Shown here piece after piece: positions 7,156 through 56,665 of a stretch of 64,000 nucleotides of DNA. A program made the position numbers and the translations under genes. The notes below the pieces were generated by a model. The model saw nothing but the letters and a program-made list of their open reading frames with translations, had not been told where the DNA came from and did not search any database. This DNA is from Astropecten irregularis. Taxonomy: Eukaryota; Echinodermata; Asteroidea; Paxillosida; Astropectinidae. The stretch lies in the NCBI GenBank assembly GCA_963971285.1, contig OZ020255.1:11490931-11554930 (forward strand). The letters are read 5' to 3'. Each line of letters begins with the position of its first letter. The first letter of the stretch is position 1.

Positions 7156-10100
7156 CTAAGCAGTTCCAGGGATCTTCCACTGGAGGCTCCGCCCCTCGCT
7201 GTACAGACGCTTCAACTCCTTCTGCCACTCCTCCTGGTCGTTCTCCGTCAGCTCCAGGTACTTCCTGTACAACAGCAGGGCCGTCCGGGCATCCTCGATA
7301 CTGTCGTGGGTCTCTGACTGGATGTTCGTGCCTTAAAGCGCGAGACGGGATCACGAGCGAATCAAAAATAAAAACCGAGCTTCAATATAACAAGTTGTGA
7401 ATGCAGTTTTGAGAACAGGTCTTCTCGCAAGTCGAAAATTAGACAATAGACGGATGACCGGGATTTTGTGCAGAAACATTTAAGCGTAAACCGTCCTACA
7501 AAGCATTACTCTGAACATTTCCCTCTATCCATCCAGGGTTCATGTTTAGCGCTCAGACTTTGGTCACAGAATTTTCTTTCATAACTTAAATTTCCCCCTG
7601 TCTTATACTTCTGTCTGCATGCTGTGAGCCCCCCCCCTCCCCCCCACATTGTGTCTAGGCATCCCCCCAAATAAAAATGTAACGCTGGAAAATATCAGAT
7701 CTTTTCATTTATTACTCGCCAATTGCATGAAAAATTGTTGTTGTAGGCTATGGGTGCATGCTTTTCTACTCCTAATAAGACATAACAGAAGCGAGTGTTA
7801 GAAGAAGGGTCTAGTATCTAGCCCCCCAAAATAAGTGGCTCTTCTAGCCCCCCAAAATTAATAGATCTTACAGCCCCTCAAAAATATTGGATCTAGAACC
7901 GTGCCTGTGCCATGATCCTGGGAAAGCGTTTGTGGAGCAACCTCCGGCTTCAGATAGTTTGTGGGTGTGACATAGTAGCTCAAAGGAGCAGCCTCGTGTA
8001 ACCTTGTTAAACCTCATCAGAAGTCTTACAATGTCATCTAAGGGCTCACAAATTATGGGAGTCGCACGAAAACATTCATCAAGTAATACGGGCGATTCAT
8101 AATAGAGTGCCACCAAGAGTTTGCTACGCGTCGGCTAATCAAAATGCGAGTAACCTGTCGACACTTCCACTTCCAGATGTGCAATGGGTTAAAAAATGTT
8201 GTGCATTGTGATTGACTCCGCTCAAATCTCGATCGAATCCCGCTCCAGTCAATTGTTCTTTGACTTTGACTTAACAACTTAAAATTTATCCCGTCAATTT
8301 CACTTGTGGTTATTTGCTAAATAAATGCAAAACCTGGGTGGCAAACTATTTAGAGTCGCCCGTATTGGGCAAAGATATCACATTGTTTGATAGAACTAGA
8401 ACTCACCGAGGAAGAACCACGCCAGGAAGCGCAAGGAGAGGATTCTCTGCTTGGGAAGGTTAAAGAGGGCAGCCGTGTCAATGATCTGCTTGTGAGGCAC
8501 CTGCAGGAGATCACAATCAATGGGGAGAGAGAGAGAGAGAAGTACCACTTTAGCGAGTACGTCTGAACCTAGAGCTGCAGGTGAGACTCTTCCAGAGGTT
8601 TTAAGAATGAGAGAAGCACCACTTTAGCGAGTACGTCTGAACCTAGAGCTGCAGGTGAGACTCTTCCAGAGGTTTTGAGAATGAGAGAAGCACCACTTTA
8701 GTGAGTACGTCTGAACACTGCCGGTTAGACTCTTCCAGAGGTTTTGAGAGAGAGAGAAACACCACTTTAGCAGGTACGTCTGAACCTAGAGTTGCCGGTA
8801 AGACTCTTCCAGAGGTTTTGAGAGAGAGAGAGAAGCACCACTTTAGCGGCTACGTCTGAACCTAGAGCTGCCGGTAAGACTCTTCCAGAGGTTTTGAGAG
8901 AGAAAGAAGCACCACTTTAGCGAGTACGTCTGAACCTAGAGCTGCCGGTAAGACTCTTCCAGAGGTTTTGAGAGAGAGAGAAGCACCACTTTAGCGAGTA
9001 CGTCTGAACCTAGAACTGCCAGTAAGACTCTTCCAGAGGTTTTGGGGTGCAGGTCCCAGATTTTGGATTCATGAGAAGAACCCAGGCATATCATAAACCA
9101 GTTGGTGGGAGTCGGGTGGTCCTTGCCTTCGCCTTTCACCTCTGGCGGCATGGATACAAATCTGGTTCGGTCCACAAGTGGACTGGTTTTTCAGTCCCTA
9201 CCTGATTCTGTAGGTATTACTAAGAATATTACTGCTGAAGATGAACAGAGCACACTGTTCAGAATGTCGAGTGATAAAACCATCGGTTATCTTCTCAAAC
9301 CCACAAACTCTCACAGAAGAGATTAAATGGTGTCACCAAAAATCTTATTTTAAGAATATTACCCGGCACTCTGTGTTTTTTACTCCACCTCTAAAAAAAT
9401 TCATCTTCTTTTCGTCATCTTGCCATAAAAATCAAACACTTTCGATCTCAGGCTGTACTCCGTGGTCATATATGGGTTGATGTGGCTGGCAGCCAAGGGC
9501 GGCAATGAAAGCCAGCTACTCGATCACGTTGAAGTCGTATCCTTCGCAATTCAGCACTCCAGCTGCGAGTAAGGATGATTAGCCTCCCAAATTATAAAAG
9601 GTTTCATCAGGCTTTTAAGCTACAGTGCCTGGAGCGCTTTTAAGGAATCCTTGGTTTCATAACCAGAAATTTATAATAAATGAATTATGATGAAAACTTG
9701 ACTCTTCTACTGACCAGTAGGTTGATGACCCTGAAGTCCTTGCGCAGGCCGTGGCCGACAAACTTGACCTTGCAGTCGATGAGATGCCTCAGCTTGAGGT
9801 AGGTGGCCTTGAGCGTCGTCAGATGCTTGGAGGAGATGGTGGCGTCCAAGTCTCCGGGCTTGATGCCTGAGAACTTGGTCAGGTAATCCACGACCTGTCG
9901 GTAGTGGAAGGGAATGAGATCAAGAGACCAACTATTAACAGACTGGAGGATAGGGAGACCGCTGGTGATCTATAATGTCATCACCTAGATGAGAAAGGGA
10001 TTAATAACTGAATATGCTTCAATGCCAGGCACCTGTGTACTCACTTGGAATTGTTCGGCCAAAAGGAGTCTTCTCATTTTTCAACTATTAAGGAAGAGAA

Positions 10101-13100
10101 ACTTTAAAACCGGCTGGGCCCAACCACTGAAAAGCCAGGCCAGACCTGAGCACTGTCTGGGGTCTTGGGCTTCTATAATTCCCAGCCTTGAACTATCAAC
10201 TTCAAGCCCCTGCTTTATCCTTATAACTGATTGACAGGTTGAGTCCAAATGATCATGGACAATATTCTGAAGCCAGGCTTTATTTATTAAAAAAAAACCA
10301 TCTGTATTATAGTGAAGTTCAGTGCTGGCAAAAGGAGGATAACATGCACAAAGGCTTGGGCTTGGCCAGGCTTGGCAAGTATTAAAGTTTCACTCCCTAT
10401 TAAAGGTAGTATCATACTTTGGTAAGAAACCAAAACAGAAATGTTCACAGATTTACGTATAACTTATGAAGATGGTGGTGGTAATGTTCCGCCTGAAATG
10501 GTGTATTTATCCAGAAATGAGTAAAACAACGACCGAAAATCATTAGGATCTTTCAAAAGATCAAAAATAAAACAGAAAAGACTTAAGAAATACTGTGGCC
10601 GTTTTTCACAATTTTCTCAAAAAGTGGGCACCGTATGGGACTGAAATTTTCACAGATGACTGTGACTGTATCTTCCTTGATATTTTTGCTCTTGAATCTG
10701 TATTTTTTTGACAAGAAACCAAAGTATGATACCACCTTTATGTTGAGACACGATTTGTATGGTGTCCGTGTAGCATCAACAAACCTATCATACTTTGACC
10801 AGACCAATGTTTGGACTGACCTGTTCCTGGGTGGAGATGTAGTCATCGATGAAGGCTTGACCGGTCAGCGGACCCTGGCCCCGGATGACGCTGATTCTGG
10901 CTGCGGACATCTGACTCGGCTTGATGGTGGACCGTGTGCCGTCGCTACGAATCTCTGCTTCTTCCTGATCACAGATACGACAGATGCATCAAAGAAATCA
11001 AGTGAAATTAAGACAATTAATAGCGGTCATTCCTCGTAGTTCAGAATGATTTGTTTGCTTTTTTTTGTAAGAGCTGTGATCATGATTCTTTCACCAAAAG
11101 TCAATGTTGGGCAAGGTCTTTCTTTGTGGCACACTGCTTGACCAGTGACCTCTACTTCAGGTCAAACAGGAAGTAGCTCCTCATTTAAAGTGGTAAGAGC
11201 TAGGATCATGATTCTTTTGTCCATAAGGGATCCCTTTCTTTGTATAACAGTTTATATTTGAATATCTATTTATAATATCATATGCGGAAAAGCCCTATGT
11301 GCTGTTACAGCCATAGATGTCTAGTCCTTTTTGCAATTCTAAACTGTATAATATAACCACTCCTGAAACCCTGTCAGCTGCTAATAGTGAGTAAGACAGC
11401 CGATAATTCTAAAGTGAACAAGCATAGCACATAATATTGACAGAAAACTGGATGCTTTTCTTTGTACATGTTTATTTCACAAAAAGAAACTTCATGAATA
11501 TTAAATGATTTTGGTCGGGAGATAGATAATCATTTTTTATGCAAATTAGGCTTGCCCTTCACTGATGTGGATGAGCACTGTATAGTCAGTGCTTGTGAGT
11601 GCACGTGAAAAAATCACCCGCTGGCTCAGGTGGGATTCGAACCCACGACCCCATGCTTACTAGTGCAGATGCCATACCGCTAGGCCACCGAGCTAGCTGG
11701 GGTTAGCGGGGTGAATCAAATCCAATATCGCGGCGGGTACTGCAGTAAATCATGAAACTCAATTATTTTGGTCGGGAGATAGATAATAAGCAAATTAGGC
11801 TTGCCCTCGTGGATGAGCACTGTATATTCATTTAATATTCATGATTTACTGCGGTACCCGCCGCGATATTGGATTCAATTCACCCCACCGACCCCAGCTA
11901 GCTTTTTATTTAATCCTCTCCCATTATTACCTGATTCAGTGAAACAAATTCTGCGTCGATGCCCACAATGTCGCCCTCTTTTGGCAGCTCCTCCAGCGGG
12001 GTGAAGGTACTATGACTGAGGACACCTTGTGAGAGGGAGGCTTCGGGCTGCAGGACATTATGGTCGATCGGTGTGTTGACTGCAGAAGGTCACCAAAGAA
12101 CGGAGAACGAGAAAAACATCAAATGTATGACTAGAACAAAAAGACTGGAATGCCGGTGTGGCAGTCTCAGCTGTCTCCCGGTCTCAGCTGTCTCCTGGTC
12201 TCAGCTGTCCCCCAGACAAGCATGCCACTTAAACGGACGGATTTAGGAGAACCCCTGAGACCGGCATTCCAGTTTACAATGTTTGATTTCAAGAAAGAAT
12301 TTGTCAAATACATACTACAGTTTGTACTTGGTTTTACTTTTCATTTCAAGATTAGTAACGTAAATAATAACAAATTAATTTCAAAGCTTAGCAAGAATTA
12401 ATGACTAGTTACAAAAAATTATATACAATTAATCCTATTAAACAAATTCTCTTTTTAGTGCGAACAATTTCTTGGGACAATTGCAAGATACTTTCAAGCA
12501 ATGGCACAATCACATGCAATAGGCATTCTGAAACGGAAGGGCATTTTCATTGGGGTAGCAAATTCTCCTTACTTGTGATTTCAAGCAATTGCACAACATT
12601 CCCGTTGTATTTCTGAAATGAAAGGGGATTTTGGTTGGGAGAGCAAATTCTCCTTACTGGCAATTTCAATCAATGGCACAGTCATTTTACAAGAGGTTAC
12701 ATCTGAAATGAAAGGGAATTTTGGTTGGGAGAGCAAATTCTCCTTACCGGCAATTTCAAGCAATTGCACACTCATAGTATAAGAGGTTACATCTGAAATG
12801 AAAGGGGATTTTGGTTTGGGATGGCAAATTCTCCTTACTGGTAATGTCGTAGTGATCATTGATGTCTTCTCTCATGTAGTACAGGACACAGGGCACCTTC
12901 CACTCCATGTTGAACTGCACCACTTCATGCTTCTCAATGGCCTCGATGCTAAAATCATTGAAGATATACCACTGCATGTGGGTCACGCCCTGTGCACGAG
13001 AAACAACATCACAGTGATATACAATAGCTTCCTCTATGGTGTGTGCATTTATCACGTGAAACGAGTTTTGTTATACACTGATCCGACGGCGCAACCATGG

Positions 13101-16100
13101 AGGTAGGAAACACCCGCCATTACTGGTGTGTCCCCGCCTGTATTTTGTCCGGCAACAAAAGAATTTATGTCCGCCACACTCTATACTGCAGGGTGTACGT
13201 CCCCTAATCACCCTGCAATTATAGAGTGCGGCGGAGCATAAATTCCTTTGTTGCCGGACAAAAGGCAGGCGGGGACACTGTTGTAATGGCGGACAGTATA
13301 TCGTGCCGTCGGATTGGTCTATAGTTAATCCATTTCTACAATACGGAGAGTTTCTTAAATACTAATCTGACCGCAGCTCTAAGCTCAGTGCACCAGAAGA
13401 AAATCAGTTTATAGCAAGCTTGAAAACAAGCCCGGCGATCGCCATTGGTTGGGTCTGAACCAGCATCTATCCAATTCCGGCAGCCACATTTGGAGTGTGG
13501 ACCCCACCCCCCCACCCCCTGCATCTCCGGCCTGCAATCGAGTCTCACCAAGCATAAAGAACCAGCTGACAGGAGACCCCCCGACCCCCTCAACAATCAG
13601 TCAACCCAAACACGAGCCTACCACTGGGGGCTGACCTTCCTCGCAAGAACGGGTCAACACTAAACCAGCTACGGACGGGTGTTGGCCGATTTAACACCAA
13701 CATGCATCGCTGGGGTCTGTGTCCATCAGCAGCCTGACCATGCGGAGCCGAGGAACAGACCGCCCACCACATCATCCACGAGTGCCCCACCTTCCCCCAC
13801 CCAATGACCTGGACCTCGATAATCTGAGCCCTGACACAGTGAGCTGGCTGCAGCGGCTGAGTGACATTGCCTAGCTGTCTCATACGAAAGAAGAAGAAGA
13901 GTCTCACCTCTTTGCGTTTGTGGTAGGTCTTCCCGACCTGGATGTGTGCCACAAGGTTGCCTCCGGTCCGTACGTCCTTGATGTGAGCAATGGAAGCATG
14001 TAGATAGTAGTCCACGAACCCTGACGAACTGTCACCCTTTTCCTAGGATAATAATAATATCAGAGAATTTATAATGCGCACAGTATCTAGAAAGTTCCAT
14101 TCAAAGGCGCAGATTATTATTATTACCTGGTCATTGGGCTAAAACATCTCAACACCCTGGAGAGTATAAAGGCAATCAAGCACACAAACTCTACCCTCAC
14201 AGGTACCCATTTACTCCTGGGTGAAGAGGAGCAATATTTGAAAAAGCGTCTTGCCCAAGAATGCAAGCACCGCTAGCCCATGGCTTGACTTGAACTATCA
14301 CATATACTACTCAGGAGGAGGCTGTATGAAGAATCTTACTGATTGAGCCTAAGGCTGAGCCCGAGCCTGAGTTTCATTAACGTCCAATGTCTGAGTTACC
14401 TCTTCTCTGACCTCCTGAATTTCCAGGGAGCCATCTTTGTTCAGTCGCATCCTCAGGGCGTGGGGCAGCCAGGAAGCTTTGTTCTCCTCTTGTAGCAGGC
14501 TATTGCCAGAATAAAGATGAAAAACGTAATTGGTGAAATTTGGCACAGAAGACTGTCCTCACATTTGGTCAGTTAATTGGTCAGTCAATCGGTCAGACAA
14601 TCAATCAATCAAGTGGTCAGACAATAAATAAATCAATTGGTCAGTCAATTAATCAGTTGATCGGTCAGTTGATTGGTCATTGAAGTGGTCAATCAATCAG
14701 TCAGTCAATCAGTCAGTTGATTGAGCAGTCAATCGGTCAGTCAATTAATCAGTTGATTGGTCATTTGATTGGTCAGTGAAGTGGTCATTCGGGGAGTCAG
14801 TCAATCAGTTAGTTAATCGGTCAGTCAATTAATCAGTCGATCGGTCAGTTGATTGGTCATTGAAGTGGTCAATCAATCAGTCGGTCAATCAGTCAGTTGA
14901 TTGAGCAGTCAATCGGTCAGTCAATTAATCAGTTGATTGGTCATTTGATTGGTCAGTGAAGTGGTCATTCAATCAGTCAGTCAATCAGTTAGTTAATTGT
15001 TCAGTCAATTAATCAGTCGATCGGTCAGTTGATTGGTCAGTAAATCAGTAAGTCAATCAGTCAGTCGATTGGTCATTTGATTGAGAAGTCAATCAGTCAG
15101 TCAATTAATCAGTTGATCGGTCAGTGGATTGCTCAGTCATTGATCGGTCATTTGGTTGATTGATTGATAGACAGATACAAAGACAAGAATAACAAGCTTA
15201 CGGGTTGGCTGCATCTCGTTCGTCCATGTGCCTGAACTTGCACCCTTGCCTGGTGCATGCCTGGCCGTACCGACACATCTTGATGCTAGCCAGGTTAGTC
15301 TCTAACTGCTGCTTGTGGGCCTCCGACTCTTTAGCTTTGGCCAGCTGCAAGGACGTACACAAAACACTATCATCAATTAAAGTACCCCTTGCTATATTGG
15401 ATTCAAATTAACCTGCTGACTCCAGCTAGCTTGGTGGTCTAGTGGTATGACATCTGAGGCCGATTTCACTATAAACCCTTTGTGATCATCGATAAAGCCC
15501 AAATCGCTAAATGGAAAATTGCTACGCAAAATAGCGATCGATTTTCCGTCTAGCGATGGATTTGGGCTTTAGCGATGATCGCAAAGCGTTAGTGAAATCG
15601 GCCCCTGGGGTTGATTTCACCAAACTCATCCAAACAGGCTATCAATCGTAAGAGTTATGACACATTGCAGCCCTACATTAGGCCTAAAAAAGAATTTTTG
15701 TGTTGCCCTCAGTGACGGACCATAAAATGCCAAAACTTTGGGTCGGGATTTTTCTTTCTTTTTTTTTTTTCTCTGAGTCCTGAAGTATAAAGACTCACCA
15801 TTTTTGACAGAAAATGTAAGATTTAGCAGTAAAAAAGCGTGTCTCCTACAAAACGACCTAAGACCGTTGATTTATAAGCCCTGGTGACCATACATCCTGT
15901 ATTTATTCTTAAATGTTTGAAAATCAGCAAAAAAAATAAAAAATCAACCGACTGACCAAAATTTTTAATTTTTCCACTTGAGGGCAACACAACATTTTGT
16001 TTTTTTGGCCTTAGATACGATGGGTTATCCTTTGTATAAACTTGAGTTGCGATCGATTGTAGGGCTTCATGAAATTGACCCCAACACTAGTATTAAAAGC

Positions 16101-19100
16101 AAGAAGTTTAAGTACGAATCCCACCTGATCCAGCAGGATTGTTTCATGTTTGCTCAAAAATGCACCGAGCACTGATGTAGTACCAACACAAGCCGGTGAA
16201 AGGGTAAGCCAACCTTGAAATAAAAACAGTTTCATCACTGTACTTCTAGACCCCAAAGGAAGCCGGAGATAAGAAGCAGCCTCTGCTACACCCGACCCTC
16301 CACTCCATGGCTACGTTCGAGCGAGCTACTCGCGTTAACACGAGTATACTCCCGAGTGCTCAAACGGCTGGAGTACGACACTCAGGTCAGCGAGAGTATA
16401 CTCTCTCCCCATGGGGAGTATACTCCTGCACTGGAGAGTATTGCTCGCGCATCATACTCGTGTTACCGGGAGTAACCGCTCAAACGCAGCCCAAGAGTCT
16501 TAACCAATTTACCTGTTCCTGTATCTTCCAGAAGAGGATATCTGAGTTGGATTCCAGATGGCAGTTGACGGCAAGCACGTCCGGCAGGCGCTTGTAGGTC
16601 CGCTTTTGTGACTATACGGACAGCAAAAAGGAAAAGGAGAGAGGAAGGTCTTTCCAGAACTTGTTCAACTTTGTACTTTACAAAGCTCTGTGGTCAGAAT
16701 GCAAACCTTACCTCGGGGAAAGTTTGGTTGGTGCCAAGTGCTTAATATTCTAGATGCCACAGCATAATTTTCACCGGTCTGTGAGCTGTTGGTCTAGCAA
16801 CTGTCTGTTTGTCAGTCTCTCTGTCTGCACTTGGGCCCTTTTCCAAACTTTGGTTCAGGCTCTGGCTCAGGCTTCGGCTCAGGCTCTGGCTCCAGCGCTG
16901 TCATCCATATGCTGAAAATGTAGGTTGTGGCTTTTCATTGAAGCTGAAGCTCTGTTTTCATGTTCAAAATAGTGTATCTACTTCCAAATCCTAGTGCATC
17001 TATTTTGATACCTGTTATTTAAAAATGGATTCACGAAGTGGAGCCAAGCCAGAGCCTGAGCCGGAGCCCGAGCCGAGGTTAGGAAAAGGGCCTTATACTC
17101 ACCGTAGGCTGGTACCTATTGCAGTCATCACACCATGCTTGCATTGTCTGGTCTAGCAGCATGCTGTTCTGCAATACCGATGAGAAGGACACCTCTTTGG
17201 CTGGCCTCGTTGCAGCTATCAACAAAATCAAATGTATTCCAAAACTTTAAAATCTGAAAATTGATACAGTTGAACGCCGCTATAACGAATATGGTGGGAA
17301 GCACAGATATTGTCTGTTATATAGTGGTCATTCGTCATAGTGATTTAAAGGGCGGCTGCAGTGCTTTTTTCAGTCAGGTTATTTTATTGCCTTCATACAG
17401 AGAATATACTGACAAATAATGAATGGCAAGTCTTATTTTGGTTTCAAACCAGCATTTGGTTTTCCTTTGAATGGCTTTGTAAAACGGGGGATTTTCACGC
17501 ATACTTATGTAGGGAACCAACAGCCAAAATATAATGAAAAAACATAAGAAATGAAGAGGCAAACTTGACCTACAGAAATGGTTTGGTAAAAAAATTACAC
17601 CACCAGTTGAGTGAAAGGAACATATTTGGCAAAATAAAACCATTGAGGAGGAAAAGGTCTGTCAGAAAACCTATAAAACAACTGCAACTTTTTGTGCACA
17701 AATCAATTGGGTTACTGCTCTCAGTTCCCCTGATGACATCACAGCTTTGCTCATTAATATGGAAATGCTAATTAGCATACAGACCAAAACAACCTGTTTT
17801 TAACCCTGAATCAGTGTGAGGAAGTGGGTAAAATTACAATACCCATGTACAGTTTTTTTATTGGCACATGTTCAAGCCATAATATTCCCATTGCAGAGAC
17901 CCTTTAAAGAACCATATTGGGTATATATTGTACACACAAATTGGGAATCAAGGATGATGTTCGGTATAGCCAAATTTTTGGTATAGTGATGTTTGCTATA
18001 GTGGCGTTCCACTGTAATGCTACCATAAATCTATTTTATGGAGTCAACAGTGCCTTTGAAAACTGCCCTCTGTTGATCAAATTGTGAGAGGGATGATGGT
18101 GAAATGAAAATTTTGGTTGACTATGGGCCTTTTTGAAATGGAGGCTTAGGCTAAGGCTCCAATTCTGTCATCCATATGCTGAAAATATAGGTTGAGGTGT
18201 TTCACTGGACCTGAAGCTCTCCTTTTCAAACCAGAGAACCTACTTCCAAACCGCAGCCAAAAGCCTCCATTTCAACACCTGTAACTTTAGAATGGATTCA
18301 CGAAATGGTGCCAAAGCCTGAGCCTGAACCTCCGTTTCGAAAAGGCCCTACAAGTTGGACAAGTAAAGACACACTCACTCGGAGGAAGAAACTCTGGGTA
18401 GGTGAGGGTGACCAGCAGGCTGGCCGATGACCTCTCTGTCTCCTTCCCACACCGGCACTTCACCTCTGTCTGGACCTCTGACTCAAACATCTGCTTGACG
18501 CTCTCGGTACGGACTCCTGAATCCGTCTCCACTGTGTCCTGCAACACCAACGATGATTATAAGAATCAGACACATCAAATACCTCCTCAAGGCTACTGGG
18601 CCCAATGTCATGGCTCAACTTACCCTATGTGTAGAATTGGCACTTAAATACGCAGGCAAATTCAATGCTTATGAGATCTTATAGATCAACGCGGACATCC
18701 GGGTCCTTTCATTCTCATGAAGAGATCACAGAAAGATATTACAGTAGGAAATTGGTGTCAGGTGAATGCACAGGGGAGTCTAACTGAGGTCGTTGATTTG
18801 AAACCTAAGACGTCAAGAGAGGATTGAGATGAGAGGTGTTACTGAGCCCTCACCTGTATGAGTTGAGCCAGTACGAACCGATTCCAGCTCTGGATGAGGC
18901 GGGGCAAATTGGCCTTCCCGGTGGCCTCCTCTGCCTCGCCTAGCAACAGACCCAGGGCCGACGCTTCGGGGATGGTGCGGAATGCTCGCAGGAAGTTGCT
19001 CGCCTGTACGTCGGCAAAAAATAAAAAAGAACAGGTTCTGATGGAGAGGAAATGTTGGACTGAACTAAACAAAGACCTGCTCCGTCTGACTGCCAAAACT

Positions 19101-25100: not shown

Positions 25101-28100
25101 TCCAAAGGCAAATGAATCAGTTGAGGGTCATCAGGAGGGTCATCGGAGGAATTACTGCCCGGAGGAGTTTGATCTCTTAAAGGTTATATCATACTTTGGT
25201 TTTTGTCAAAGAAATACAGATTCATGGGCAAAAATACCAAGACAGATACAGTAACAGTCATCTGTGAAAATTTCAGTCCCATACGGTGCCCACTTTTTGA
25301 GAAAATCGTGGAAAACGACCACAGTATTTCTTAAGTCTTTTCTCTTTTATTTTTGATCTTTAAAAAACAAAATTGTGGTCGTTGTTTTACTTTAATATTT
25401 CTGGATGAATACACCATTTCAGGCGGAAATATTTTGACGGTATGTTTCTACCACCACCATCTTCATACCCTGTAAGTTATACATACATCTGTGAACATTT
25501 CTGTTTCGGTCTGCTACCAGGATTGGTAACATACCCAAACAGAAATGTTCACAGAATTACATACAACTTTCAGGGTATGAAGATGGTGTGAAGATTGTAG
25601 AAACATACTGTCAAAATATTTCCACCTGAAATGGTGTATTTATCCAGAAATTGGTAAAACAAAGACCAAAAACAGTTTTGATCAAGGAGTATTAAAGATC
25701 AAAACCATTCTTTATGTTTTATAAGACAATTTGAGCCAGGTTTTCTCTATTTTCTCGTGACTCAGATGTCCGATTGAGCTAAAATGTTCACAGGTTTATG
25801 TCATTTCATGTACATGCTGGATCAGACAAAGTGTGAGTGCTGTTTTGTCATCCCTGAACTTCACTACAATAGAGCTGCTTATATTCAATAAAGCCTGGCT
25901 TCTGAATAATGTCTGTGATCAATGTGGACTCAATCTGTCAATCAGGTTGATGCCAACTAGATGATCCAGGATAAAGCAGGGGTTTGAAATTCAGAATTCA
26001 AGGCTGGGGATCACAGAAGCCAAGACCCCAGGTAAAGCCAATGTCTGGCCTGCCTTTTTGGTAGCTGGGCCCGACCAATATTAGCTTCTCTCTCTTATTA
26101 AACTGGTTCCCAACAACATTCCATCCACTGCGATTCCCTGTACTCCTCTCACCTTCCCGCTGGTATCGCCGCAGCAAATGAAGTTGGTCCCGTGTCGCAT
26201 GATGGCCACGCCGGGGTCCTGTGCGGTGAATGTGGCTACCTCCCGGCCCTCGATCAGGTCAAACTCCACCAGGGTGTTCTGGTGGCCTCCCATCAGCAGG
26301 TGGGTACCGTTGTAGATCAGCATGCACTGCATGTCTTGAAGAGATTCTCCGCTGAAAAAAAAAAAAATGCGCATATCGGTGAAAATGATCATTGGGAGTT
26401 TGCCGGTGTGTGCGTGGTTTCATGGCTTTTGACTGTCAAACAAACAAAGATAATTGACTATTGGGACAGCACCAACGTAGTGCTGGATGGCTCAGTTGGT
26501 AGAGCGCCTGTTCAGTGTCCAGGAGGTCGCCGATTTGAATCCCGCTCCAGTCAATTTTTCTTTGTTCACTTTTCAATGAAAAAAAATGTGAGAGGTTTGA
26601 TGGCTTCTGACTGCCAAACGAACAAAGATAATTGACTATTATTAGGGACATTGGCAACATAGGGCTGGATAGCTCAGACAGTTGGTAAGGGCGCCAGTAC
26701 GGTATTCCGGGGGGGGGTCGCTGTTCTGATGTAAGCCTGTCTGGACTTGGAATAGAAATTTTCAAGTCCAATCGTGGACATTTTCCTAATCGTGGACCAC
26801 ACAATCCCTTTTGTCATTAGTCCACGGTTTGAATACTTTTACAAACTCAAAAATGTCCGACACAAACCTGTAGTCGAAGACCCTGAGTCCCTGCCTGGCA
26901 TGGCAGTGAAGGCTGTTGCTCGTCAGGCCCAAGACCCCGCCGTCAAACGACGTAATCTGACGGATTTCTCTGGTGGCGTGCATCTGGAAGGAGGTGTATT
27001 TCTGCATCTGCGTGCCGTAGTACGAGGTCACATGTCCCTACATCGACAACAGAACAAGAGAAACTTCAGCATGACATGCTTGTTTCAATACAACGTGCAC
27101 CAGCCACAAGGCAATGATGAAATTTGTTTCAGCTACGGACGATTTCTGAGAATTTATTCCATCAGCTATTGCAAATCAGGGGCATATTTCATAGAGCTGC
27201 TTAAGCACAAAAATTGGATTATTAAGCACGAAAGAACTGACACTGAAACAAACAGGCCCTAAGCCTCTGGGAGAGATCCCGTAAGGATCCAAACGCCAAA
27301 GCCCTCCTAACTCTTGTGCATGGGGATTTACTATGATGAGGTAACGGATCCATAAGATGGCTTGCCTACTGCTACACTACAAGGTTGGCAGTCGACTCTG
27401 TATGACATCAGGAGGCAGTGGATTCGAACCCTGTCCAATTATAAAGTCTACAGATTTTGGTCTCATTGACATTCAAAGGTAACAGGTTCATGAAAATCCA
27501 CAAGCCAGGCTTCATAGAGCTGCTTAAGCACAACGATTTGTTTAATAAGCATGAAAAGTCTTCTTGGATCAAACAGAATTACCAACCAAAAATTCATGTG
27601 ATGTTTACTGCTGCTGCTTTTGTTGTATTTGGCCATTGTTTGCTGAGCATAATATTCACAAGGAGTATTTGGCTGGCATACTGATTTGAGTGATTTCATT
27701 TAACAAGGTTTTTGGTGCTAAAGCAAATTTTGGTGCTAAAGCAGCTTTATGAAAGTGGACCCAGATTTCAGATTTTGTTGCTCGAGGTACAAGGCCACAC
27801 TTTCTGAGCAAAAGGGCAATTTCATTATTCTTAAGTCTCAAACTGCCATTGGATGCATTTTAAGAGGCAAATGAGGCCAAAACCAAAGGGTCAGAAGCCA
27901 GGGGCCCTTCTTTAGCACAAACATTTGCTAACCATGAAATTTAATAAAAAACAGGATTAACAACAAAATTTCCATGTGTTGTGTATCACTTGTGATTGTT
28001 CTTTGGCCGTTGCTGACCATGAATATCAAATGGAAGTTTTAATGGTGGTTTGTTTGATTGAGCAAGACATTTTGTGCTAAGCATTTGTTTTTTGTGATTA

Positions 28101-30692: not shown

Positions 30693-33600
30693 ATGAGGCG
30701 AGCGAAAGGAATAGGAGCAATTAATAAACAGAAGCTTGCACAAGTAAGTAAACTGGAAAACATTTTTATTGCAAACTGCAAAGTCTATCTGAATTGTGTT
30801 GTGAATGTCTTGTCAATGTGTTGGGGATTGTGATAAGAAGGGATCCCCGAAACACTTGATTATTTTACCTCTTAAATAGCTTCTTCTCCACAAAAATGAT
30901 ACTTTTAACTTTCAGCAAATGTTCCTGGGTCCTTAAAAGCCTAGATTGAAGAAATTTGTGCAACATTTCATTGTAAAACTAAAAATGCAATTTTCTTACG
31001 CGCTTCTTGCAAACTTGAAAAATAAGATAATCATAACTCTTGGTCTGACAAGTCCCCATGTCAGACCAAGGTTTAATACGAATCGATGTTTATGCCTAGT
31101 TCATCGTGATAGTTGTATTACAAGGTATAAACATACAGAAGATATTTGGAAGGGGAGTTGAGAATCCCTTCCCTGCGATTTTATATTTTTAAGAACATTA
31201 CATTTTATCTTGTGACTTGTCAGGCCAAGTACAGAGACAAAGGCAGCGAGATAGCTGAAGACCAGCTCAGCCAGATGTCCAAGATGCTGGAAGCCTTCCG
31301 CACCAACTTGGAGGAGTTTGCAGCCAGTCACAAGAACGACATCCGTCGCAATCCGGAGTTCAGGATGCAGTTCCAGGAGATGTGTGCCACGATTGGAGTG
31401 GATCCACTGGCATGTGAGAAAGGCCCAAATATTGACCCTTCTCAATGTCCTAGTTTCACCCATTCTCTTGATCATTGAGTCCCCTCATGGCCCTAGTTGC
31501 GATGATCATAACCCTCGGTTGGTCATGGTGACAATGACCTAAGGACCTGAAGACCTTAAAACCAGGGGTCGATTTCACAAAGCCCTACGATTGATCGCAA
31601 CTCGAGTTACAAAGGATAACTCATCGTATCCAACGAAGGGCTGCAATGCATCATAAGTCCTACAATTGATAGCAAGTGAGTTATGATGACTTTGGTGAAA
31701 TCGACCCCTGAAGAGTCTATGGCTGCATCCGAATCTGTTGTCTGGAGCTAGGGTTAGGTCTTTACTCAATTGAAAATATGCAGAGACACCAAGACAATAG
31801 ACCTAGTTGTACCTTGGGAAGCCCATTTCGGACATGGCCTAAGTTCCAGTTCAGTCATCGCAACAATCTTGGCCCCTGCCCAATAGCGACTGTCTCCTTA
31901 TCAGAATTGTTCATTAAGTCACATGCTAAATATTCAGATTGAGTAATGTTTTTGCAAGACTGCGATTATTAATGACTCCACAATTTGATTCTTGGACGAA
32001 AGTAGCTAAAATCAGTAGACACAAGACTGTGAAAGAAAAAGCCATTTCAGACTGTAAATGATGTAAAGAACATTTTTTTATTAGTCTCTTTTTGTACATA
32101 AATTGAGAAAAGTTGCCCTTGATAGTTTTTTCCCCTGGCAAAGGTAACCTGTGATAGAAGCTGACAGGTCTACTAAAATATTTCATGGGACAATCCAAGG
32201 GGCACCAAGGCAATGGCCTCTGTGAATTTCCTGCCTTGCTGATTATAAAGTTTGCTTTCAAAAGCTAGATTCTGTCTCAAAAGGACAATTCTGCTATATC
32301 TTGGGTTGACTTGCTATTTTTGTAACATCTTGCAGCTGGAAAAGGCTTCTGGTCCGAGATGCTCGGTGTCGGGGACTTCTACTATGAGCTCGGAGTCCAA
32401 ATCATTGAGGTTTGTCTGGCCACACAGCACCGCAATGGAGGGCTGCTTAGCATGGATGAACTCCTGAAGAAAGTGCGAGCTACCCGCGGACGATCCAAAC
32501 AGGCTCAGGACGTCAGCCTGTGAGTAGGCCTACGGCCGGGGCCGAGGGACAAAGGGGATCCAAGTAGGACAAAATTGCATGAGCTATGATGAACAGGGAA
32601 GCACTGATCTTGGCTCATGGAAACATTAGTCAGAGTTTTGTGATTGAATAGAATGAAATAATCAATCATTTTAGTACTTTTTACAAGTAATCAACTGCTG
32701 CAAACTGCTCATCAACCAAAATAATGACCTGCAATACATAAAATGCTTGGAGTTATAGGAGGGCCTGACATTTCAATCCTAGCAGGATCTTTCTCAAAGC
32801 CTTGAAGTAAGATCCTGCTCGAAAGTAAACCTCATCATCATTTGCACAGGGTGCTCCCTAGGTCCAAGAAAGTAGTCTGTCTGTTTGGCAACATCTCAAG
32901 ATCAATTTGCCTCTAAAATGGCTGTTGGATGACGCCAAAGGGTGATTATATTTTGAAATTTCTCTGTATTTTATCCCAGTGATGATCTCATGCGAGCCAT
33001 TAAGAAGTTGCGTATCCTCGGTGATGGCTTTGCCCTTCACAGACTCCAAGATGGTCGGTACATCGTGCAGTCGGTGCCCGCTGAGCTCAACATGGATCAC
33101 ACCAGTGTGCTGAATCTAGCAGAGGTAAGAAAAAGAAAAAGTCAAACAAAAAATGGTTTTTCGGTTTCTCTTCGTAGAAATATCATTATGGTTATTTTAT
33201 TATTATATAAAATAAAAAGCTGTATCCTCTTTGAGTGATCCCCCATGTACCGTTCCCAGGTTGCAGCATTGTTCCGTGTATCATTGAAACGGTCCTTGGG
33301 ATATGGCGGTGTGTGCACGGTTTCATGGCTTCCGACTGCCAAACCAACAAAGATAATTGACTATTGGGGTCACCACCAACGTACGGCTGGATAGCTCAGT
33401 TGGTAGAGCGTCTGTTCAGGAGTTCGCCGGTTCAAATCCCGCTCCAGTCAATTTTCCTTTGTTCACTTTTCAAATATTATTATTGTTTATTATTGTTCTA
33501 CCACAGAGTCTTACATCTTGCCTAGGTGTCATTGCTATCATCTTCATTTATTATTATCCGACAGATACCATTGTCTTACATACATTTTTATACATTCTGA

Positions 33601-44531: not shown

Positions 44532-47500
44532 TCACCGTATCTCAATCTTGTTGGGGCTTGCTTCTAGAAAGTAGGTGAGCATTTCCCCTTTGCCCTTGAC
44601 GGTGACGTAGCCCCTCTCCACCAGGGTGTAGCCGACAGGCAGAAGGATGTTGGCCATCTCTTGCGTGACCTGCAACGGAAAGTCAATTAATTAATCTAGA
44701 AGGTTTAAACATCTGCGGAGCACCGGTTGGAAATACCTGATGCGGATACGACATCTTTTGACATCTTATACATAGACCACAATATGTACGTATGGTCAGT
44801 CCAGCACCTACCTGTATTTTATCGGGGACCCCCGTACTGTCCATCCGGCTGGAAACATTGACCGTGTTGCCCCAGATATCGTACTGGGGCTTGCGGGCAC
44901 CGATCACGCCCGAGACCACAGGCCCGACGTTCAGTCCTATTGGGAAAACACACACCAATAATACTCCATTTTAATACACAGAAACACTGGGTGATGTAGC
45001 CATCATCAGATGAGACAGGTTACCAACCAAACTCTGCTTGGTGCAACAAGTCTCCAACAGGTTCCCTCTTGAGCCAATTAAGCTCAGCAAACAATGGCTG
45101 AATACAAGTGAAAAGCAATAAATGATAATTGGGTTGGCAATCCTATTTGATCAAGGAACACTTTTCATGCTTAAGCAAATTTTGTGCTTAAGCAGCTCTA
45201 TGAAAATGGCCCAAGGTATTAAACATTTGATGCAGTTACTTACCCACTCTCATCTTAAAGCTGTTGAAGGAGTGTTCATTGACATATCGGAGTGAGGCTA
45301 GCAGGTGGAAGGCCAGGTCGGCCAAGGCAATAACGTGGGTGTTTCCCTCTCGATCAAACGTCTCCTCCGTCAGCCCTGAGGCTGCCATGTAGGTGCTACC
45401 GATGGTCTTGATCTTCTCAATCTGAGAGAATTTGTCAGCCCCGATGACCTGGTGCAAAGACAAGAAAAACAACAGGAATGAGTGACCAGTTTAAAGAGAT
45501 ACTATGGGCGTTTACGAAACAGCTAGAGGCTCAGGCTCAGACTCCAGCTCTGACATCCTATGCTGAAAATATAGGTTGTGGTTTTGCATTGAAGCTGAAG
45601 CTCTGTTTTCCTTTTCAAACCAGAGAATCTACTTCCTCTATTTTGATACCTGTTATTGTAGAATGGGTTCATGAAAATGGATCCGGAGCCTGAGATGGAG
45701 CCTGAGCCTCCGTTTCGTAAACGCCCTACAATATATATGCCAGCTTTCAAACAGTAAAGACAAGTACAGAAATGCTCATGAAGGCAGCCATACCTGGGGG
45801 CCATCAATCACTGAGCTTTCCTTCCATATGGCTGCGTTCGAGCGAGCTACTCGTGTTAACACGAGTATACTCCTGAGTGCTGGAACGGCCAGAGTACGAC
45901 ACTCGGGTCAGCGAGAGTATACTCTCCAGATATGGGGAGTATACTCCTGCACCGGAGAGTATTGCGCGCGCATCACACTCGTGTTATCGGGAGTAACCGC
46001 TCGAACGCAGCCTATGTGTCTATACAATGGCCCCCAGGTATGGCAGCTTCCACAGATTTGCCTGTATGTAGGTGGTACTTTTTATATTAGACCCTTGAAC
46101 CCAGATAGTATCTGGTACACAGGCTTCTTTCATTGCATATAAACACCCCAGTTTGAATTTCCTAGACTAAAGACTCTGTTGCTATATCACGTCATTCAGG
46201 GCAAGCTTTTGCTTAGTTAAATAACAGCAGCCGATATCATGAAACGTTGTGTAACTTACGCAACGTACAAATGTTTCAACCAAAGGCAGGAAATGTTGCA
46301 TAAGTTACGCAACAAAATGTTGCATAAGTTATGCAACATTTGAAGTTTCGTGAAATCAGCTGCAGATGTCTTTCACAATGTTTACAATGGATGGCACGAA
46401 GGAACCAGTCCATTCCAGAGATGGGTATTGCTATGCAAAAGCTTGCCCCAAATCATGTAATATAGCAACAATCTTTAGACTGGGAAATTCATACTGGGGT
46501 GTTTATATTCAATGAAAGAAGCCTGTGTACCAGATACTATTCAGAATAACTCGCAAATGGCTTAATGCTACAGATTGCTTGAATAACTCCAGCATATAAG
46601 ATTCTTTGACTGACCTCATCAAAATCGTGGAGAATCTCGTTCAAGAGTCTCAGGCACTCCACGCCCTCATTGTTGGCTTCCAGCTCCACGTAGAAGTCTG
46701 AGAAGTTGGTGATGCTGGCGAACATGACGGCCACAAAGTCGTTGGCCCGGTAGTAGAGGTCCATGTCCTTGGTGGCATTCTTGAGGAAGTGCTCGGCCAC
46801 AAAGGAGGGCAGGATGTTATTGAGCAGACGCTTGTTGTAGGCCTGCAGATCCTTCATTTCATCCTTCTCCTCGGTTGCCTAGGAAACCAAGATGGCAGCA
46901 GATGTGATCAATGGATGGAGTATCATGGCTGGCTTCTCTGATGCTTTAATTTCAAGATCTTTACGTATTACGGTAAAGATTTGAAGCTTTGCATGATGGA
47001 GGTAACGTATAAAGACGATTTGCAGAGACGCCATGGAACTCTTTTCTAGAAGTGTGATTCTGAAAAGAACCAATGAGAATTATCTCAACATTCCGGCCAG
47101 TATACTCAGAGTGTGAGTGTGGACGGCCAGATAATATTCCGGCCAGAACGTTGAGATAAATCTCACCGGTTCTTGTCAGAACCACACTTCAAGAAAAGAT
47201 TTCCATAATGTCTCTGCAAACTTTCTTTATTCAAGATCTTTGTTGAGATAACTATGAAGGATAATTTTGGAAAAAAAGCAATCAATTTCGGTAAAGAACA
47301 CCAAGTAAGCGCCAATCCGTGGCAGGACTGGCAGTTTTTTAAACACTTTATACCTGAAGTTTCCAAAGGAAGTCAAGTCTGGCCGTGGACTCTACCTGCA
47401 GTCCATGCATCCACAGGGCAAAGATGTAGACCAGGATGAGAACCGGACCGGTAATCTTCAGGGAAATGACATTTATTTGCAAACTGACAGAAAATGAAAA

Positions 47501-56439: not shown

Positions 56440-56665
56440 AGTGAACAAAGAAAAATTGACTGGAGCGGGATTCGAACCGGCGACCTCCTGAATACCGTAC
56501 CGGTGCTCCGTCTACCAACTGAGCCATCCAGCCCTACGTTGGCGTTGTCCCAAATAGTCAATTATCTTTGTTCGTTTGGCAGTCAGAAGCCATGAAACCA
56601 CGCACACACCGCCATATCCCAGGGATCATTTCACTGATACACACAGCAATGCTGCAACCTGAGAA
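56440..56665 (-). mobile_element. tRNA-derived SINE-1 in cyclase upstream DNA
   Basis: On the minus strand: body GGCGGTGTGTGCGTGGTTTC, A box TGGCTCAGTTGGTAGACGG, B box GGTTCGAATCCCGCTCCAGT, tail TCAATTTTTCTTTGTTCAC. Confidence 0.85.

Follow-up and report, generated by a model that had tools for sequence, protein, structure and literature searches.

Can the nuclease subunit of the PAN2-PAN3 complex carry a poly(A)-recognising zinc finger of its own? In yeast, it is Pan3 that carries the complex's CCCH finger, Cys14-Cys23-Cys30-His34 (C-x8-C-x6-C-x3-H; PMC4158885, the second cysteine being printed as Cys24 in PMC6547884). According to the first of these reports, isolated yeast Pan2 binds no RNA, the contacts with poly(A) are provided by Pan3 and PABP, and the single Pan3 finger prefers poly(A) with a Kd of about 60-100 uM (PMC4158885). 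An earlier note on the DNA analysed here had stated that the CCCH finger of known complexes belongs to PAN3, which agrees with the yeast report (PMC4158885), and had placed a finger of the Nab2/ZC3H14 type in exon 17 of a PAN2 gene. We examined that gene, its exon 17 and the finger in the window, by which we mean the whole 64-kb stretch of DNA that was analysed.

A PAN2 gene on the minus strand of the window

The minus strand of the window carries a PAN2 gene whose coding span runs from 29570 to 7156 (25 exons, 1164 amino acids). The predicted protein matches PAN2_N at residues 48-352 (312.5 bits), UCH_1 at residues 508-882 (321.8 bits) and RNase_T at residues 956-1128 (57.7 bits), each above the Pfam cut-off and in the domain order that defines PAN2. 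A search of NCBIfam returned no match. The best solved PAN2 chain was 9qtu_C, which we take to be human PAN2, with an E-value of 4.4e-257 across the UCH and exonuclease parts; the protein thus resembles human (9qtu_C) and fungal (4q8g, 4czw) PAN2 in having PAN2_N, UCH and exonuclease domains. The exonuclease part is encoded by exons 21-25 (7156..12079, minus strand) and contains the motifs DAEFV (959), VGHGLRKDF (1061) and THDSIEDA (1114), which align to the solved PAN2 chains and presumably supply the DEDDh exonuclease residues. Exons 14-15 (17103..18538, minus strand) encode two cysteine pairs, CRC (residue 645) and CDDC (residue 699), which lie apart from the CCCH finger and which we assume to form the zinc ribbon of the pseudo-UCH domain. 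The full domain set, together with the matches to solved PAN2 chains, confirms that the gene is PAN2.

The gene model was built using a human PAN2 sequence as a guide, enumeration of splice sites, and reading of the sequence junction by junction. The enumeration covered 13 junctions, three of which had no candidate and were placed by eye, as were the junctions of exons 1-3 and 16-25. All 24 introns are GT-AG, a property that was required while the model was being built. For exon 15, the enumeration ranked a different splice pair slightly above the one chosen (112.8 vs 109.6). Such choices change the numbering by a few residues, which may account for the three-residue offset between our numbering and that of the earlier note, which had the finger at residues 762-777; the motif, its spacing and its location in exon 17 are as that note described, and in the present model the finger occupies residues 765-780.

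Exon 17 behaves as a coding exon in sequence tests

Exon 17 (15344..15202, minus strand, 143 nt, residues 742-788) was found at exactly the position reported earlier, when no strand had been named. The exon begins with CTGG after the acceptor TTGCAG and ends with CCC before the donor GTAAGC. It is entered in phase 0 and left in phase 2, its final codon being completed by exon 18 (14400..14499, minus strand, residues 789-822); upstream, exon 16 (16513..16611, minus strand, residues 709-741) ends in FWKIQEQ. Joining exon 16 directly to exon 18 adds 36 residues in the wrong frame and then ends translation at codon 778, which bears out the statement that the exon cannot be skipped without a frameshift.

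The coding score of exon 17 is 19.3 in frame, compared with -1.9 and -16.2 in the remaining frames, and its G+C content is 56.6%, compared with 41% for the introns. None of 1335 stop-free windows of 141 nt taken from the gene's introns reaches 19.3 (maximum 16.2; the windows overlap each other, and the intron background was derived from those same introns), and the codon score relative to these windows rules out exon 17 as a chance open frame. Between exons 16 and 18 there are 10 AG...GT candidates of 60-400 nt in the right length class. Nine of these fall inside exon 17, eight of the nine retaining the finger, and for the remaining candidate the coding score is -15.3; none is credible as an alternative or mutually exclusive exon bridging exons 16 and 18. 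We consider it highly improbable that exon 17 is an artefact of the splice model and that the real protein lacks it. Poor conservation relative to human PAN2 speaks for such an artefact, whereas a codon score above that of every intron window, good splice sites, the frameshift upon skipping and the lack of a credible substitute among the candidates speak against it. On these sequence tests, we treat exon 17 as real.

Exon 17 encodes a putative Nab2-type CCCH finger

The segment of exon 17 that precedes the finger spans 15276..15344 (minus strand) and the finger itself spans 15228..15275 (minus strand), as located by motif scan, Pfam and PDB matches. The finger has the spacing C-x5-C-x4-C-x3-H, which is that of Nab2 fingers, and it is the sole match to C-x5-15-C-x4-6-C-x3-H within the 1164 residues of PAN2. 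From PAN2's own composition, 2.9e-4 matches to the CCCH spacing would be expected by chance, and 2.4e-7 if a basic and two aromatic contact residues are demanded as well. The six frames of the 64 kb contain two spacing matches, and the contact residues are present only in the one in exon 17.

These contact residues follow a rule derived from the crystal structure of Chaetomium Nab2 fingers 3-5 bound to poly(A): the residue next to the first cysteine is basic, the second residue past the first cysteine and the second past the third are aromatic, and these residues stack on adenine (PMC3874189). A review concurs on the residues (PMC6371209). According to the same work, a Nab2 finger with both aromatics binds two adenosines and a finger with one aromatic binds one (PMC3874189). 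The exon 17 finger contains C-R-Y and C-K-F, with the basic residue and both aromatics in place, and thereby fits the published code for two adenosines (PMC3874189). Its assignment to an adenosine-recognising type is consistent with this code, binding itself being a prediction from sequence.

Searches of the PDB pointed to the same relatives. With the 22-residue finger as query, the top four matches were Nab2 chains (5l2l, 1e-7; 2lhn, 1.3e-7; 4lj0, 5.3e-6; 3zj2, 0.12), and the other six of the 10 matches up to an E-value of 10 were TNFRSF9 and muscleblind chains (2.1-3.5). With the exon peptide as query, Nab2 chains again came first (2lhn, 7.9e-7; 5l2l, 8.2e-7; 4lj0, 3.4e-4; 3zj2, 0.28), ahead of two chains (0.65 and 4.1) that are distantly related or unrelated; the small Nab2 E-values sum several fingers per chain, the best single-domain i-Evalue being 0.054 for the exon peptide. 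Two control exon peptides, one reversed and one rearranged, matched no PDB chain at E<=10. The motif scan and these closest solved relatives support the Nab2/ZC3H14-type spacing that had been claimed for the finger.

By profile, the resemblance is more distant. The 22-residue finger scores 19.0 bits against Pfam zf-CCCH_2 (PF14608), below the gathering cut-off of 25.8; the exon 17 peptide scores 16.5 bits, and within whole PAN2 the match is 11.4 bits (E 0.5). As a yardstick, five Nab2 finger peptides score 25.7-29.1 bits, one of them just under the cut-off. The exon 17 finger would thus be, at best, a diverged member of the Nab2 fingers by Pfam profile. It is like Nab2/ZC3H14 fingers (PF14608) in its spacing, its basic and two aromatic contacts and its best PDB matches, and unlike them in its score, in being single rather than tandem and in being located in a nuclease; in addition, a Met follows the His in the PAN2 finger, whereas a Pro is found there in four of eight distinct Nab2 fingers aligned. 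Nab2 fingers act in tandem, and a lone finger of this type would likely be weak.

When the 47-residue exon 17 peptide was folded alone by single-sequence AlphaFold2 (mean pLDDT 77.8, pTM 0.35), the model contained a helix at exon residues 8-20 and the finger as two short strands. A Foldseek search of this lone-exon model against the PDB gave six matches at chance-level E-values (6.1-9.4), with no CCCH chain among them; we regard this weak model as uninformative.

The finger lies in a loop that differs among PAN2 proteins

Exon 17 encodes a loop between the LPDVLAVNC segment of exon 16 and the segment encoded by exon 18, inside the UCH_1 match. We presume that the corresponding loop in USP proteins is blocking loop 1, which lies next to the old active-site cleft. 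When the query included exon 17, the fungal PAN2 chains were unaligned across this stretch, and when exon 17 was removed they aligned from LPxVL to WL(P) with no insert (the insert-free alignments are those of 4czw and of the yeast chains grouped with 4q8g; seven distinct sequences matched and five alignments were printed). Fungal PAN2 chains thus differ from the present protein in having no insert at the finger site. Human PAN2 differs in another way: it has a loop of about 40 different residues at this site and no CCCH, and a scan of the human PAN2 guide sequence for C-x4-15-C-x3-7-C-x3-H found none. Exon 17 has the lowest identity to human PAN2 of all 25 exons (4/47). The UCH_1 profile scores 330.5 bits without exon 17 and 321.8 with it, a comparison between constructs that also differ in length. 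Judged from these alignments, the loop looks like a variable animal-side insertion that here holds a finger.

A search with two PAN2 regions for relatives of PAN2 in GTDB genome contigs and IMG/VR viral contigs confirmed none; pattern matches numbered 73, 67, 75 and 100, and these prokaryote and virus collections have no bearing on animals. Among the titles and abstract openings listed in a literature search, none described a PAN2 with a CCCH finger.

A possible poly(A) grip on the nuclease subunit

We lean towards the view that the finger would give the nuclease subunit an extra grip on the poly(A) tail, weak and selective for adenine; RNA binding is here predicted from the features described above. 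In this proposal, exon 17 places a Nab2-type CCCH finger in a loop of the UCH domain, which is itself catalytically dead; there the finger would fold around zinc and could bind one or two adenosines. The adenine rings would stack on Tyr767 and/or Phe778, with Arg766 assisting, and a zinc-bound cysteine would read the adenine N6. Being part of the UCH-exonuclease unit, the finger would hold poly(A) weakly and base-specifically close to PAN2's active site, and this hold would supplement, not replace, the contacts made by PAN3 and PABP. We infer, as parts of the same proposal, transcription of the exon, the location of the finger relative to the RNA path and an effect on tail shortening. The active site of Pan2 is reported to read the stacked helix shape of poly(A) and not adenine groups (PMC7116106), and a finger that reads N6 would for this reason add a new element. 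Against the proposal stand the Pfam score below the cut-off, the summing of repeated fingers in the small PDB E-values, the likely weakness of a lone finger, the Foldseek result without a CCCH chain, the low identity of exon 17 to human PAN2 and the comparatively modest effect reported for deletion of the Pan3 finger in yeast (PMC6547884). The overall interpretation in the earlier note is partly supported: the gene, the exon and the type of finger are borne out, and solved human and fungal PAN2 lack the finger; the role is the part of it that we infer.

The same finger might be a structural or protein-binding zinc knuckle that makes the loop more rigid or offers a partner a docking site, with no contact to RNA, a reading that we regard as possible, if rather unlikely. 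USP-type insertions may be protein-contact modules, as illustrated by the dimerising insertion of USP28 (PMC6509359), and the Pfam score of the finger is under the cut-off; against this, all three Nab2 adenine-contact residues are kept, which is beyond what zinc binding needs. The insertions in the catalytic domains of USP25/28 are comparable to the exon 17 loop in being a functional module within a USP-type fold, and differ in that they dimerise active deubiquitinases (PMC6509359), whereas the UCH fold of PAN2 is dead. A stronger version of the poly(A)-grip proposal, which strikes us as doubtful, is that PAN2 of this lineage acquired a finger of its own, grips poly(A) without PAN3 and so makes trimming dependent on base identity, unlike yeast and human PAN2; a chemical adenine check would then lie beside an active site that checks stacked shape only.

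As for where the finger came from, we see an even chance that it is an old, common trait of invertebrate PAN2 that was replaced in the vertebrate line and is ordinary outside vertebrates, a reading that is compatible with the extra-grip proposal and concerns its novelty. Human PAN2 has an insert of similar size at the same place, which suggests that in animals this loop probably has a long history and varies, and in general a finger is more easily lost than gained; on the other side, the fungal chains compared have no insert at the site, and no second PAN2 with a finger appeared among the human and fungal chains and the prokaryote and virus contigs covered. The exon 17 finger is like the N-terminal finger of PAN3 in being a single CCCH in the same complex, with a preference for poly(A) reported for Pan3 (PMC4158885), and unlike it in sitting on the opposite subunit with another spacing. 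Because the spacings differ (x5-x4-x3 in exon 17, x8-x6-x3 in yeast Pan3; PMC4158885), exon 17 does not contain a moved Pan3 finger. It might still be that in this lineage the N-terminal finger of PAN3 has disappeared or become weaker and that the finger which reads poly(A) is now the one on PAN2. The poly(A)-reading role of the yeast Pan3 finger and the existence of a Chaetomium Pan3 splice form without the finger (PMC4158885) are in keeping with such a shift; the spacings argue against transfer of the Pan3 finger itself, and we find this relocation improbable.

If the extra-grip proposal is true, this PAN2 would be a natural variant that combines recruitment and catalysis in one chain, and would allow a direct test of tail specificity, that is, of shape reading in the active site versus base reading elsewhere. 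It would also mean that a dead UCH domain is able to carry RNA-binding inserts.

Repeats, tRNA matches and neighbouring genes

Most of intron 17 is occupied by a degenerate TCAATCAATCAGTCAG-type tandem array (14567-15139), which stops some 60 nt short of the donor of exon 17 and could influence splicing or assembly; we regard it as a bystander. In intron 23, a 74-bp unit is repeated in tandem seven times (8529-9044), starting some 28 nt upstream of exon 24, and a 90-bp tandem repeat (3.6 copies, 12527-12845) overlaps at its end the last bases of exon 20 and the donor after 12839.

Four Rfam tRNA matches lie above the gathering score, at 11622-11694 (minus strand), 26481-26553 (plus strand), 33385-33450 (plus strand) and 56457-56533 (minus strand), the first two sitting in PAN2 introns 21 and 3, respectively. 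ARAGORN called one of the four, at 11620-11695, without an assigned type, and the matches are possibly tRNA-derived SINEs.

Upstream of PAN2 and opposite to it, an exon-like open reading frame at 31131-31478 (plus strand) matches the EAP30/Vps36 family (68 bits) and is, we assume, probably part of the ESCRT-II subunit SNF8. Another exon-like open reading frame, at 46537-46878 (minus strand), matches a nucleotide cyclase catalytic domain (28.6 bits) and perhaps belongs to a membrane adenylate cyclase.
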